NCBI RefSeq assembly: GCF_030164425.1
Contig: NZ_JASNJD010000003.1
Coordinates: forward strand, 248,001 to 312,000
DNA from: Pseudodonghicola flavimaris
Lineage (GTDB): Bacteria > Pseudomonadota > Alphaproteobacteria > Rhodobacterales > Rhodobacteraceae
DNA: 64,000 nucleotides
Direction of reading: 5' to 3'
A program made the position numbers and the translations under genes. The notes beneath the pieces are model-generated. The model saw only the letters and a program-made list of their open reading frames with translations, was not told where the DNA came from and made no database searches. Every line of letters begins with the position of its first letter. Position 1 is the first letter of the stretch. This document shows, piece after piece, positions 54,318 through 60,112 of this stretch.

Positions 54318-55181
54318 ATGGCGAAAGTTGCGTTTCTGGGGCTGGGGGTGATGGGCTACCCGATGGCCGGGCATCTGGCGAAGGCGGGGCATGAGGTGAC
54401 GGTCTACAACCGGACCGCCGCCAAGGCCGAGGCCTGGGTCAAGGAGTATGGCGGGGCCGCCGCCGCCACCCCGGCAGAGGCCGCCGCCGGCGCCGATTTC
54501 GTGATGGCCTGCGTCGGTAACGACGACGATCTGCGGCAGGTCTGCATGGGCGAGACCGGCGCCTTCGCCGGCATGACGCCCGGCGCGCTTTTCGTCGATC
54601 ACACCACGGTGTCGGCCAAGGTCACCGCCGAGATGTACGCCGCAGCAAAGGCCGCTGGCCTGGACTTTGTCGACGCGCCGGTCTCCGGCGGGCAGGCCGG
54701 CGCCCAGAACGGGGTGCTTTCGATCATGTGCGGCGGCGATCAGCCCGCCTATGAAGCGGCGGAGCCGGTGATGCAGGCCTATGGCAAGTCGATCAAGCGG
54801 CTGGGCGACAGCGGTGCCGGACAGCTGACCAAGATGGTCAACCAGATCTGCATCGCCGGGCTGGTGCAGGCGCTGAGCGAGGGGCTGGCCTTTGCCGAGA
54901 AGGCCGGGCTCGACGGGCGCGCGGTGGTCGAGGTGATCGCCGGTGGGGCCGCCGGATCATGGCAGATGGTCAATCGCCATGGCACCATGATCGACGGTGC
55001 GTTCGACCACGGCTTCGCCATCGACTGGATGCGCAAGGATCTGGGGATTTGCCTTGCCACCGGCAACGAGATCGGCGCCAGCCTGCCGGTGACCGCGCTG
55101 GTCGATCAGTTCTACAAGGACGTGCAGAACATGGGCGGCGCGCGCTGGGATACCTCGGCGCTGATCAAGCGGCTGCGCTGA
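54318..55181 (+). CDS. 3-hydroxyisobutyrate dehydrogenase-family oxidoreductase
   Basis: A 287-residue beta-hydroxyacid dehydrogenase. The NAD motif is FLGLGVMGYPMAGHLAKAGH, the substrate-loop signature is FVDAPVSGGQAGAQNG and the catalytic lysine region is GAGQLTKMVNQICIAG. The group includes 3-hydroxyisobutyrate, tartronate semialdehyde and glyoxylate reductases. The arginine after strand two (YNRT) is compatible with NADP or NAD. It may be the last step of the pathway encoded upstream or independent. A strong terminator follows 150 bp on. Confidence 0.91.
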   Translation: MAKVAFLGLGVMGYPMAGHLAKAGHEVTVYNRTAAKAEAWVKEYGGAAAATPAEAAAGADFVMACVGNDDDLRQVCMGETGAFAGMTPGALFVDHTTVSAKVTAEMYAAAKAAGLDFVDAPVSGGQAGAQNGVLSIMCGGDQPAYEAAEPVMQAYGKSIKRLGDSGAGQLTKMVNQICIAGLVQALSEGLAFAEKAGLDGRAVVEVIAGGAAGSWQMVNRHGTMIDGAFDHGFAIDWMRKDLGICLATGNEIGASLPVTALVDQFYKDVQNMGGARWDTSALIKRLR

Positions 55182-55381: not shown

Positions 55382-58300
55382 TCAGGTCTTGAAGACTCGG
55401 TAGATCGCCGGGATCACCAGCACCGTCAGCAGGGTCGATGTCAGCAGACCGAACAGGAGCGAAATCGCCAGCCCCTGAAAGATCGGATCGGCCAGGATCA
55501 CCACCGCGCCGATCATCGCCGCCACCGCCGTCAGCAGGATCGGCTTGAAGCGAATCGAGCCGGCCAGCAGCAGGGTTTCCACCAGCGGCGTCTCGGGTCG
55601 GCCTTCGTGGCGGATGAAGTCCACCAGCAGGATGGAGTTTCGCACGATGATCCCGGCCAGCGCGATGAAGCCGATCATCGAGGGCGCCGAGAACGGCGCG
55701 TTGAACAGCCAGTGGCCGCCGATGATTCCGAGGAAAGTCAGGGGAATCGGCGTCAGGATCACCAGCGGCAGCCGGAACGAGCCGAATTGCGCCACCACCA
55801 GGATGTAAATCCCCACCAGCGCGACGCCGAAGGCTGCCCCCATGTCGCGGAAGGTCACCCAGGTCACCTCCCACTCGCCGTCCCAGAGCAGCGTCACATG
55901 GCTTTCGTCCTCGGGCTGGCCATGCAACGAGATCACCGGCTTGGTGCCCTCGGGCCAGTCCATCTTCTCGATCCGGTCGGCGACGGCGATCATGCCGTAA
56001 AGCGGCGCCTCGAACTGGCCCGCCAGCTCGCCCTGCACCATCTCTGCCGTCCGGCCATTGTGGCGGAAGATCGGATAGGACACTTTCTCCTCGCGGAGGT
56101 CGATCACATCGCCCAGCTCGACGACGCCGCGCGCCTCATCCTCCAGCGCGGCGGGGATCGGCGTGGTCAGGAAGCTCTCGTCGATCCGCTTCTGCGATTT
56201 GTCCCGCTCCACCACGATGGGGATCGGCCGGCGCCCCTCGCCGCGATGGGAATAACCCACCGTGGTGCCGCCGTTGAGGATCTGGATGGTCGAGAAGACA
56301 TCGCCCTCCTCCACCCCGAAGAACTCCAGCTGGTCGGTTGAAACGGTGGCGCGCAGCCGCCGGCTCTGGGTGCCGAAGCTGTCGTCGACATCGACCACAT
56401 AGGGCACGTCCTCGAACGCCTTGCGGATCAGCCGCGCCGCCTCGCGCCGGACCTCCGGATCGGGGCCGTAGACCTCGGCCAGCAGGGTGGCGATCACCGG
56501 CGGGCCGGGGGGCGGCTCCACCGTCTTCAGCACCGTGCCCTCCGGCACCGCGACCCTGGCGATCCGCTCGCGGATATCCAGCGCGATCTCGTGGCTGGTA
56601 CGGTCCCGCTCGCCCTTGGGCGTCAGGTTGACCTGCAGATCGCCCTGCTCGGCACTGGCGCGCTGATAATAATGCCGCACCAGCCCGTTGAAGTTGAAGG
56701 GTGCCGCCGCCGCCGCATGGGTCTGGATCGACACCACCTCGGGCAGCTGCATGATCACCTGCGCCACGTCCTGGGCCACCGCATCGGTCGCCTCGACCGA
56801 AGACCCCTCGGGCAGGTCGATCATCACCGCCAGTTCCGACTTGTTGTCGAAGGGCAGCAGCTTCACCGTCACATGTTTGGTGTAGAACGCCGCCATCGAG
56901 CCGAAGCTGAGCCCGGCCGCGACCAGCAGGAACAGCCCGGACCGCCCCTTGGACTTCAGGATCGGCCGCGCGACCGCGGCATAGACCCGGCCCAGACGGC
57001 CGCCATGGCCGCCGCCCTCATGCGCGTGCAGGGGCGCCCGGCCGGCGATCTTCAGCATCAGCCAGGGCGTGATGATCACCGCCACGAAGAAGGAGAAGAT
57101 CATCGCGGCGGAGGCATTCGCCGGGATCGGCGACATATAGGGCCCCATCATGCCGGAAACGAAGAGCATCGGCAGCAGCGCCGCCACCACCGTCAGGGTG
57201 GCGACGATGGTCGGGTTGCCGACCTCGGCCACCGCGCGGATCGCCTTTTCGGCACGGTCGCCCTTCTCCGGCAGGCCCCAGTGACGGGCGATATTCTCGA
57301 TCACCACGATGGCGTCGTCGACCAGGATGCCAATGGAGAAGATCAGCGCGAAGAGCGAAACCCGGTTCAGCGTATAGCCCATGATCCAGGCGGCGAAGAG
57401 CGTCAGCAGGATGGTCACCGGGATGACGATGGCGACCACGATGCTTTCGCGCCAGCCGATGGCGAAGAACACCAGCGCCACGATCGACACCGTGGCGAGC
57501 CCGAGGTGAAACAGCAGCTCATTCGCCTTCTCGTTGGCGGTCTCGCCGTAATCGCGGGTCACCTCCACCGCGATATCCTCGGGGATCAGCGTTTCCTTCA
57601 GCAGGTCGACGCGATGCAGGATCTGTTCGGCCACCACCACCGCATTGGCACCGGCGCGCTTGGCCACCGCCAGCGTCACTGCCGGGGTGCGGCGCAGGCC
57701 GCCGTCGCCGTCGCGCGCGATGTTCGAGACGATCTTGTCCGACGTGTCGGGAACGAAGCTGATATCGGCCACGTCGCGCACATAGACCGGCCGGCCGTCG
57801 GTGGTGGTCAGCAGCAGATTGCCGATCTCGGCCGGGGCCTGCAGGGTCTCCCCCGCCACCAGCGGGATCTGCTGGCCCCGGTCGCGCACCGTGCCGGTGG
57901 AAAAGGCGTTGTTCGCCGCCTCGACCTTGTCGGCCAGCCCCTGCAGCGTCACCCCGAACAGTGCCAGCTTGTTCGGATCGGGGGCGATCCGGATCGCATC
58001 GGGGCTTTCGCCGACGATATAGGTCAGACCCACATCCTGGATCTTGGCCATTTCGACCTGAAGTTCGCGGGCCACCCGGGTCAGGTCATTCGCCGTGATC
58101 TCCTCCGCCCCCGGTTTCGGGGCCAGCGTCAGGGTCACGATGGCCACGTCGTCGATGCCACGCCCGACGATCAGCGGCTCGGCGATCCCCACCGGGATCT
58201 GATCCATGTTGGCGCGCACCTTGTCATGCACCCGTAGGATGGCGGAATCGGCATTGGTGCCGACCAGGAACCGCGCGGTGACCATGGCGTAATCGTCGGT

Positions 58301-58591
58301 CGAGGTGGAATAGACATGCTCCACCTCGCCGATGCCGCGTACGATGGTCTCCATCGGCTCGGTCACCAGTTTCGCCGCATCCTCGGCCCGGAGCCCGGGC
58401 GCCGCGATGTGGATATCCACCATCGGGACGGAGATCTGCGGCTCTTCCTCGCGCGGCAGGCTGATCAGGGCCACCAGCCCGACCATCAGCGCCGCCAGGA
58501 TCATCAGCGGCGTCAGCGGCGAGCGGATGAACGTTCTGGTCAGGCCGCCGGCGATGCCCAGGCCCTTCTTGCCCTCGGAGGTCTCACTCAT
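55382..58591 (-). CDS. RND-family efflux pump inner-membrane subunit
   Basis: A 1,069-residue RND transporter. Twelve membrane helices with two large periplasmic loops are evident; the N terminus (FIRSPLTPLMILAALMVGLV, LPREEEPQISVPMVDI) and the proton-relay aspartates in TM4 (GILVDDAIVVIENIARH) are typical of the HAE1/AcrB-like and CzcA-like class. The REEEPQ motif and lack of metal-site methionines favour an organic-solute pump; the substrate is not known. The adaptor gene precedes it and overlaps its start by eight bases. No outer-membrane channel gene is in the window. Confidence 0.93.
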   Translation of the reverse strand: MSETSEGKKGLGIAGGLTRTFIRSPLTPLMILAALMVGLVALISLPREEEPQISVPMVDIHIAAPGLRAEDAAKLVTEPMETIVRGIGEVEHVYSTSTDDYAMVTARFLVGTNADSAILRVHDKVRANMDQIPVGIAEPLIVGRGIDDVAIVTLTLAPKPGAEEITANDLTRVARELQVEMAKIQDVGLTYIVGESPDAIRIAPDPNKLALFGVTLQGLADKVEAANNAFSTGTVRDRGQQIPLVAGETLQAPAEIGNLLLTTTDGRPVYVRDVADISFVPDTSDKIVSNIARDGDGGLRRTPAVTLAVAKRAGANAVVVAEQILHRVDLLKETLIPEDIAVEVTRDYGETANEKANELLFHLGLATVSIVALVFFAIGWRESIVVAIVIPVTILLTLFAAWIMGYTLNRVSLFALIFSIGILVDDAIVVIENIARHWGLPEKGDRAEKAIRAVAEVGNPTIVATLTVVAALLPMLFVSGMMGPYMSPIPANASAAMIFSFFVAVIITPWLMLKIAGRAPLHAHEGGGHGGRLGRVYAAVARPILKSKGRSGLFLLVAAGLSFGSMAAFYTKHVTVKLLPFDNKSELAVMIDLPEGSSVEATDAVAQDVAQVIMQLPEVVSIQTHAAAAAPFNFNGLVRHYYQRASAEQGDLQVNLTPKGERDRTSHEIALDIRERIARVAVPEGTVLKTVEPPPGPPVIATLLAEVYGPDPEVRREAARLIRKAFEDVPYVVDVDDSFGTQSRRLRATVSTDQLEFFGVEEGDVFSTIQILNGGTTVGYSHRGEGRRPIPIVVERDKSQKRIDESFLTTPIPAALEDEARGVVELGDVIDLREEKVSYPIFRHNGRTAEMVQGELAGQFEAPLYGMIAVADRIEKMDWPEGTKPVISLHGQPEDESHVTLLWDGEWEVTWVTFRDMGAAFGVALVGIYILVVAQFGSFRLPLVILTPIPLTFLGIIGGHWLFNAPFSAPSMIGFIALAGIIVRNSILLVDFIRHEGRPETPLVETLLLAGSIRFKPILLTAVAAMIGAVVILADPIFQGLAISLLFGLLTSTLLTVLVIPAIYRVFKT

Positions 58592-59570
58592 CGCCGGTCA
58601 CCACCGTGTCGCCGACACTGATACCCGAGAGGATCTCGATCATCTCGGAACCATCGACCGTCACATGCTGGCCCGGCACCACGGCGCGGCGGATCACCGC
58701 CCCAGAGGCCGCGCGCACCGGCACGAAATCCAGCCCCATGCGTGTCTCCACCGCCACCGCCGGCACCAGCAACGCCTTGCGCGCACCGATCGGCAGGCTG
58801 ACCAGTACCCGCGCGTTGACGAAATCGCTGTTCAGCCCCTCGACCTCGACATCGGCGATCACCCGGCCGGTCTGGATCTCGGGATAGACCTTGGCCAGTC
58901 GGCCCAGCCGTTCCTCGCCGGAGGTGCCGATGCGGATATCCATCCCCTCATGCAGGAAGGGGGCATGCCGTTCCGGCACCCCCAGCCGCAGGAAGAAGCC
59001 GCCGCCGCCGATCGAGGCGATGGTCTCGCCCGGCAACACCACGGTGCCGCGGGTCACCGGCACGTCCAGGACCTTGCCGGCGATCGGCGCCAGCACCGCG
59101 CCCTCGGCCGCCTGTTCCTCGATCACCCGTTTGTCGCCCACCGCAGCGGCGATCTGGTTTTCCAGAACGCTCACGTTGGTGCGCAGCGAATCGAGCTGCT
59201 GGCTGGTGATCACCCCGCGCTCTTGCAGGTTCTCACCGCGCGTCAGCTCGGTCCGGGCATTGTCCAGCTGCGAGCGCAGCGCGTCGATATTGCCCTGTGC
59301 CGCCTCCAGTTGCAGCGCCAGCTTGGGATCGTGAATGGTGGCGATCACCTGACCTTCGGTGACATCGCTGCCCTCGGTCACATCGATCGACACCAGCGTA
59401 CCGCCCAACCGGGAACGCGCGTCGATCTGATCGCGCGCCTCGATCCGGCCGAAGACCGCCTTCCATTCGGTGATATCGCGCTGCTCAACGGTCAGCTCTG
59501 CCGCGTAACCTGCCGACGCGGTTGCCAGAACCGCCAGCGCAGACGCCAAGATAAACTTTCGCATCGCCAC
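58584..59570 (-). CDS. RND periplasmic adaptor (membrane fusion protein)
   Basis: A 328-residue adaptor: Sec signal (MAMRKFILASALAVLATASA), lipoyl-like halves (TLVSIDVTEGSDVTEGQVIA and GTVVLPGETIASIG), a coiled-coil hairpin in between (QLDNARTELTRGENLQERG) and a beta-barrel/proximal domain. It bridges the RND pump and an outer-membrane channel. First gene of the two-gene pump operon. Its promoter is not evident in the 125 bp up to hemP, so hemP transcription may run into it. Confidence 0.9.
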   Translation of the reverse strand: MAMRKFILASALAVLATASAGYAAELTVEQRDITEWKAVFGRIEARDQIDARSRLGGTLVSIDVTEGSDVTEGQVIATIHDPKLALQLEAAQGNIDALRSQLDNARTELTRGENLQERGVITSQQLDSLRTNVSVLENQIAAAVGDKRVIEEQAAEGAVLAPIAGKVLDVPVTRGTVVLPGETIASIGGGGFFLRLGVPERHAPFLHEGMDIRIGTSGEERLGRLAKVYPEIQTGRVIADVEVEGLNSDFVNARVLVSLPIGARKALLVPAVAVETRMGLDFVPVRAASGAVIRRAVVPGQHVTVDGSEMIEILSGISVGDTVVTGDE

Positions 59571-59694
59571 TCCTCACTGCCGTCGTGTCAGAAGACACAG
59601 ATGCACAATGTGGAATGCTTTGCAATCCCGCCGCACCGGGACCGTGCCCTGCGTCTGGCGGGACGCAGATTGACCAAGTCCCGGCAAACGGGGG

Positions 59695-59862
59695 TTATTT
59701 CGTCAGGATCAGCTTGCCCGCGCGGGTGATCCGCAGGGTATAGATCTGATCGCCCAACGCGATATGGGCCAGGTTGCCGCCGCTGGTCAGGTCCTCGGCC
59801 CGGTGGGCGGGAATGGCTTGGCTCGGGGTACTGCGGAGGGGCTCGGTGCTGTGAATGGTCAT
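59695..59862 (-). CDS. hemP: Hemin uptake protein HemP
   Basis: A 55-residue protein, read directly from the sequence: start MTIHSTEPLR, then the HemP core NLAHIALGDQIYTLRITRAG and the tail KLILTK. HemP/HmuP proteins are small factors linked to heme uptake operons and, in Bradyrhizobium, activate them together with Irr. No heme receptor or ABC genes are beside it here. Its ATG overlaps the stop of an upstream mini-ORF (ATGA), so the two are translationally coupled. An iron-box-like dyad lies in the promoter. The RND pump operon follows on the same strand. Confidence 0.86.
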   Translation of the reverse strand: MTIHSTEPLRSTPSQAIPAHRAEDLTSGGNLAHIALGDQIYTLRITRAGKLILTK

Positions 59863-60017
59863 CGCCAGATCCTCGTTTCGGACTCGATACGGTCGATCAC
59901 GGCGTCCACGGACAGCCCGAGCCGGACACCGGCATCGGCGAGAATGGTCCAGAGGCTGTCCCCGGCAGGGGCAGCCGACCGGTCGCAGGGCCGCCGGGCA
60001 TCGGTCGGACAGGACAT
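59859..60017 (-). CDS. Small ORF coupled to hemP (unknown)
   Basis: A 52-codon frame starting at ATG 60017, eight bases after TTAGGA, and ending in the TGA that overlaps the hemP start. The product (start MSCPTDARRPCDR; then SLWTILADAGVRLGLSVDAV, an amphipathic helix) resembles nothing I recognise. The coupling and Shine-Dalgarno argue for a real gene; short length and lack of homologues I can name argue for caution. It could also be a leader whose translation sets hemP levels. Confidence 0.5.
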   Translation of the reverse strand: MSCPTDARRPCDRSAAPAGDSLWTILADAGVRLGLSVDAVIDRIESETRIWR

Positions 60018-60083
60018 GGGCGCGTTCCTAAGTGATTTTTGCGGCTGGCTGACCCGGGCGCCGGGTTGGCTGAGTGAACCCAA

Positions 60084-60112
60084 TAACTGACTAAATCCGT
60101 CACCTATGTCAA
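60084..60112 (-). promoter_or_regulatory. hemP promoter with iron-box-like dyad
   Basis: On the minus strand TTGACA (60107-60112) is a perfect -35, and a weak CAGTTA lies at -10 spacing (60084-60089). Between them TGAC-N7-GTCA (60088-60102, TGACTAAATCCGTCA on the plus strand) sits where a repressor would block polymerase. From memory it resembles the Rhodobacterales 'iron-Rhodo box'; the exact consensus was not checked. Confidence 0.5.

Follow-up and report, generated by a model that had tools for sequence, protein, structure and literature searches.

The window is a 64,000-nucleotide stretch of contig NZ_JASNJD010000003.1 of Pseudodonghicola flavimaris (Rhodobacteraceae). On its minus strand it carries, in order, a promoter with an operator (60084-60112), a 52-codon open reading frame (the mini-ORF), hemP, and the genes for an RND adaptor and permease (Table 1). 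A class 1 fructose-bisphosphatase gene (fbp) lies in the opposite orientation to hemP and the RND genes. The initial annotation, read from the letters of this DNA alone, had claimed a 55-residue HemP here, and the product indeed matches PF10636 at E=1.3e-15, with 57.4 bits against a cut-off of 25, which places it in the HemP family. The genome holds no further copy. It had also been remarked that no heme receptor gene is adjacent; this is correct for the immediate neighbourhood, but elsewhere the genome has a HemS/FecCD heme operon, which carries a weaker version of the hemP operator. The claimed overlap between the hemP start codon and the stop of the 52-codon frame is present as ATGA. The mini-ORF starts with the ATG at 60017, preceded by AGGA, and ends with the TGA at 59861-59859.

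Table 1 Features of the hemP locus and the neighbouring RND genes (window positions).
Feature	Position	Strand	Remarks
-35 hexamer TTGACA	60107..60112	-	forms the 5' end of the 29-bp conserved block; columns 1-5 show no or almost no variation across 81 aligned sites
Dyad TGAC-N7-GTCA, Iron-Rhodo-box-like operator	60088..60102		sequence TGACGGATTTAGTCA (minus strand)
-10-like hexamer CAGTTA	60084..60089	-	17 nt spacer from -35; overlaps dyad
mini-ORF	59859..60017	-	52 aa; presumed first gene of the hemP transcript; C-terminal motif DAVIDRIE
ATGA stop/start overlap of mini-ORF and hemP	59859..59862	-	identical 4-nt overlap in 63 of 84 relatives
hemP	59695..59862	-	55 aa; PF10636
Promoter-like block of the RND operon	59600..59629	-	GGGATTGCAAAGCATTCCACATTGTGCATC; conserved in 5 aligned loci; related block in L065
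RND periplasmic adaptor	58584..59564	-	likely ATG start 59564; neighbour, outside the hemP unit
RND permease (ACR_tran)	55382..58591	-	neighbour of the hemP unit

Position and distribution of the mini-ORF

ORFs at the same position in a first batch of relatives share a C-terminal pattern. We used a profile of 21 mini-ORF sequences in a held-out search of six-frame segments of at least 20 aa from 105 newly fetched hemP loci. The profile matches 52 loci at E<1 (33 at E<=0.01), all at the upstream edge of hemP and on the hemP strand, and the first off-site match appears at E=2.1; two loci (L118 and L066) have an odd offset in this list, where a second HemP profile match probably set the reference point. 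After iteration, the profile finds the mini-ORF on position in 70 of 155 loci at E<0.01, with 0.093 as the best off-position match. Among named genomes, 16/80 match at E<0.01, and the named carriers include P. xiamenensis, Antarcticimicrobium luteum, Maritimibacter, Thalassovita, and Phaeovulum. A whole-genome search of Rhodobacteraceae shows matches in 94 of 295 genomes at E<=0.01 (67 of these at E<=1e-4), the weak tail of which includes long, chance-like frames. We picked a subset of 20 further places from this list: hemP follows directly after the mini-ORF in 16, one of them fused, and the remaining four are from genomes in which hemP was not detected.

The mini-ORF is not universal. It is present in 84 of the 222 non-redundant hemP loci (234 loci minus twelve duplicates), a number that is a lower bound because several of the 38 long-leader loci among the 121 with an operator but no profile match hold related-looking ORFs (e.g. 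L103, L212, L214, L224). Overlap with hemP is by 4 nt in 63 of the 84 members, by 1 nt in 9, and otherwise arranged in 12. Many genera lack the mini-ORF. The Ruegeria and Paracoccus loci that were fetched gave zero profile matches; where the operator was located in these loci, the leader is short, borderline cases apart. Since the median distance from the operator to the start of the HemP profile match is 350 nt with the mini-ORF versus 217 nt without it, its presence or absence behaves like that of a one-small-gene cassette. In the Antarcticimicrobium sediminis locus (L200), which keeps the fbp-hemP-RND order, a portion of the conserved region seems to be missing from the upstream ORF, which is possibly a decaying copy.

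In a search of 289 genomes of the class, made to look beyond Rhodobacteraceae, three matched at E<=0.001; two of these belong to Rhodobacteraceae after all and the third is a chance-like 555-aa frame. A tblastn search of plasmids returned one non-credible match for the window copy and none for the L101 copy, and two plasmid records annotate 'hypothetical proteins' at the mini-ORF position. These sequence comparisons identify the mini-ORF as a genuine and conserved gene. The initial annotation had proposed an overlooked small ORF coupled to hemP and had staked this proposal on conservation in relatives, which is what we find.

The hemP operator and its candidate regulator

The initial annotation described an iron-box-like dyad between TTGACA and the -10 hexamer. 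The site is there, and the dyad extends into the -10. Taken alone, it is within chance: the bare pattern occurs twice in the window versus 0.5 expected, with at least two copies in 7 of 100 shuffles, and the suggested genome scan with it gave 110 sites and was uninformative. The second exact TGAC-N7-GTCA in the window (TGACCAAGATGGTCA, 54826-54840) is downstream of the RND permease and differs in its spacer from the hemP site. A generic sigma-70 scan did not find a promoter in the hemP upstream region. A stricter pattern, TGASTNNNNNASTCA, gave one genome site versus four for its control, and pattern searches were therefore abandoned in favor of a profile.

The block is significant because it is conserved at the same place in relatives. 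The 29-bp block TTGACATAyCtGACTAAtTTAgTCAGaTT scores above 9 bits in 216 of 234 hemP loci, compared with a shuffled 99th percentile of 4.6, using a profile iterated on the same 234 loci and mononucleotide shuffles; the window copy scores 30.6 bits. The -10 is made up by the last columns of the block, and its second place is an A in 96% of 196 relatives. We then searched the window's own genome, scoring 150 of 362 candidates, with a profile (R1) built from 81 operator sites that include the window site. Six matches at E<=10 were obtained, at irpA (E=3.5e-4), hemP (0.017), contig C22 (1.2), bfd/bfr (4.0), HemS plus FecCD (4.4), and an iron ABC/exbB-tonB locus (6.2). Five of the six are at iron or heme loci, and the C22 match has no recognised iron gene; the four besides irpA and hemP have E>1 and mean little alone, and three of these four are at iron or heme genes. 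The idea of an iron-type operator is therefore borne out by both conservation across loci and the R1 matches. As a palindromic site overlapping the promoters of hemP and other iron genes in Rhodobacteraceae, the hemP operator is, on sequence grounds, a conserved iron-type promoter/dyad block resembling the Iron-Rhodo-box.

The genome encodes an IscR-like Rrf2 protein (L304) with a single cysteine, Cys140, followed by proline (CP motif). Its gene is beside that of a cysteine desulfurase, which matches NifS/IscS models below their cut-offs, an arrangement of the type of the Rhodobacteraceae IscR. We scanned four of the five over-cut-off Rrf2 proteins, leaving out L307, for RirA; the best score is 130.5 bits, below the NCBIfam cut-off of 193. 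In R. sphaeroides, a single-cysteine IscR is reported to bind the hemP promoter, where a 19-bp palindromic box overlaps the -35 and -10 and is placed as in the window, as well as the iscR promoter (PMC4618611). We infer that IscR binds at the hemP site of the window.

Proposed role of the mini-ORF

In relatives, the usual order is operator, mini-ORF (when present), hemP, a gene for a 155-aa protein, and irpA. The 155-aa gene is downstream of hemP in 93 of 222 loci, overlapping it by 4 nt in 88 of those, and irpA is often next or nearby. The 155-aa protein, seen in L065, L264, and L261, is conserved and is missing from the window. The window is without the later part of this operon; irpA-bfd-bfr are found on contig C6 with their own box. 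This cluster (L299, G000:C6:39000-56000), split from hemP in this genome, consists of irpA, an outer-membrane-like protein, bfd, bfr, a di-heme oxidoreductase-like protein, and a second imelysin-like protein, and has two operator-profile matches. In one relative (L266), the mini-ORF and hemP are joined in-frame as a single 93-codon frame, a natural fusion that is a single case and could have arisen from sequencing or a frameshift. The mini-ORF persists behind the hemP-type operator block in four genomes in which hemP was not detected. In two of them (L261 and L264) it has a 4-nt overlap with the 155-aa gene, in L262 it is followed by a Bfd-like ORF (assigned by eye) and bfr, and in L263 (G210:C114) no recognised iron gene is downstream on the same strand.

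We think it likely that the mini-ORF and hemP form an iron-controlled two-gene unit behind an Iron-Rhodo-box-type promoter, and that the small protein is a partner or accessory of HemP. The dyad overlaps the -35/-10 of the promoter; when iron is sufficient, single-cysteine IscR most likely occupies it and represses, and iron shortage would relieve this repression. The transcript would be translated first into the small protein (52 aa here), and termination-reinitiation at the ATGA would then allow translation of HemP, so the two proteins would be made together. The small protein would most likely serve as partner or accessory in the action of HemP or in the iron-starvation response rather than as a mere leader. 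More tentatively, and with less confidence than in the two-gene unit, we suggest that the mini-ORF represents an undescribed two-helix family of roughly 40-60 residues specific to Rhodobacteraceae, and an old first member of an iron-starvation operon (mini-ORF, hemP, 155-aa protein, irpA, bfd, bfr). In this proposal, it would act with HemP, as suggested by the one natural fusion, and have a role of its own, because it survives behind the hemP-type operator where hemP is gone.

Alternatively, the mini-ORF might be a regulatory uORF whose translation, through the nascent chain or ribosome traffic, sets expression of the next gene in a CruR-like logic, with a functionless peptide. This would fit a mini-ORF that is always the first gene after the promoter and overlaps the next gene by 4 nt, be it hemP or the 155-aa gene (L261, L264). 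The protein begins with a Pro/Arg-rich N-terminus followed by two predicted helices that end in the motif L-E-x-L-L-D-R-I-E. Its N-terminal half is poorly conserved, also in keeping with a uORF, and Met1 and Asp42 are the sole invariant or nearly invariant residues. AF2 places the helices at residues 18-33 and 37-51 with modest confidence (pLDDT 70.8, pTM 0.33), and a Foldseek search of this model against the PDB returned no match. However, the conserved motif is internal, with roughly 2 to 15 variable residues after it, and we found no conserved Cys/His or arrest motif in the family. Searches of Pfam, NCBIfam, PHROGs, and PDB sequences revealed no named family for the mini-ORF, only scattered single-member matches at E=0.03 or weaker; none of 64 members matches DUF2946, and they lack the CXXC and RAPP motifs, which argues against membership in CruR/DUF2946. 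Short-leader genomes carry the same operator without the mini-ORF, and one copy is fused to HemP. We therefore regard a regulatory uORF as unlikely and favor a co-translated HemP partner.

A still less probable reading is that the mini-ORF is translated but functionally minor, a spacer whose sole role is to bring ribosomes to hemP. High divergence (identity to the window copy is mostly 10-27%) and the many genera without it would agree with a spacer. The pN/pS of 0.44 is biased low because its pairs were selected on amino-acid identity, and the nearest pair, the window and L050, is weakly constrained at 0.76. In 25 pairs chosen by hemP identity and compared at the nucleotide level, the effect is small (0.30/0.24/0.34 at codon positions 1/2/3) and 70 of 267 indels are multiples of three, most of these pairs being unalignable. 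Against a spacer, the residue motif suffices for detection across the family by a held-out profile, and Thalassovita shows third-position excess. The mini-ORF is present in 9/9 Thalassovita genomes, and in nucleotide alignments of the 7 pairs more than 65% identical, divergence is 0.18/0.11/0.39 at codon positions 1/2/3; this genus gave usable pairs, and a genus search for G140 returned one genome. Retention in the four genomes without a detected hemP also speaks against a spacer.

The initial annotation further hinted at shared iron regulation of hemP and the RND pump, which our results do not support. The two are on the same strand across a 124-nt gap, and six loci keep the fbp-hemP-RND order; of these, L065 has an additional gene and L200 has no scored mini-ORF. 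However, among the 222 non-redundant loci, just these six place pump genes after hemP. The stretch separating hemP from the pump contains a block GGGATTGCAAA-rYATTC...TGTGCATCTGT whose conservation in five loci far exceeds that of the flanking sequence. A related block stays with the pump in L065, where the additional gene intervenes between hemP and the pump. The L065 block contains an inverted repeat (TGAAAATATTCATTTTCA). No further R1 match is present in front of the pump. Because a separate conserved block precedes the pump, a separate promoter is more likely than a shared iron response, and a separate regulator may act at this block; a single iron-regulated operon of hemP and the pump is improbable. 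Least probable is that the dyad arose by chance or has nothing to do with iron: the bare pattern is common and the sigma-70 scan negative, but relatives conserve the whole block, and the search of the window's own genome finds it again at iron and heme genes.

Significance and comparison with known systems

HemP, the Iron-Rhodo-box, and control by IscR are already known. The literature within our scope, which did not extend to most subscription papers or the 2006 regulon paper, yielded no description of an ORF before hemP in Rhodobacteraceae. The conserved small gene points to a family left nameless in a well-sequenced bacterial group. Iron limitation is reported to raise hemP 34.65-fold (PMC3413700). 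The mechanism of HemP/HmuP is disputed, the descriptions differing between DNA-binding activation and post-transcriptional action depending on the species (PMC9131926), and a conserved, probably co-translated small protein that is once fused to HemP is a concrete candidate partner. Our analysis further dissociates the adjoining efflux pump from the iron signal at hemP.

The window hemP shares with the small regulators HemP, HmuP, and ChuP its family and short length (PMC9131926). ChuP is encoded at the head of an operon that includes a heme receptor gene (PMC9131926), whereas the window hemP has no adjacent receptor. CruR of Bordetella (DUF2946) is likewise a small ORF leading a metal-related operon; however, it is described as a 145-aa protein with CXXC and RAPP motifs whose nascent chain senses metal (PMC9426467), features that the mini-ORF lacks. 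In the hemP-irpA-bfd-bfr operon of R. sphaeroides, hemP is preceded by an Iron-Rhodo-box, a dyad overlapping the -35 and -10, as it is here (PMC4618611). R. sphaeroides has an iron/IscR regulon with irpA, bfd-bfr, exbB-tonB, and siderophore ABC genes (PMC4618611), which this genome probably shares. Unlike in R. sphaeroides (PMC4618611), the window hemP is split from irpA-bfd-bfr and is located beside fbp and the RND pump. Finally, the accessible part of the R. sphaeroides report (PMC4618611) mentions no ORF between the promoter and hemP, whereas the window has the mini-ORF at that place.
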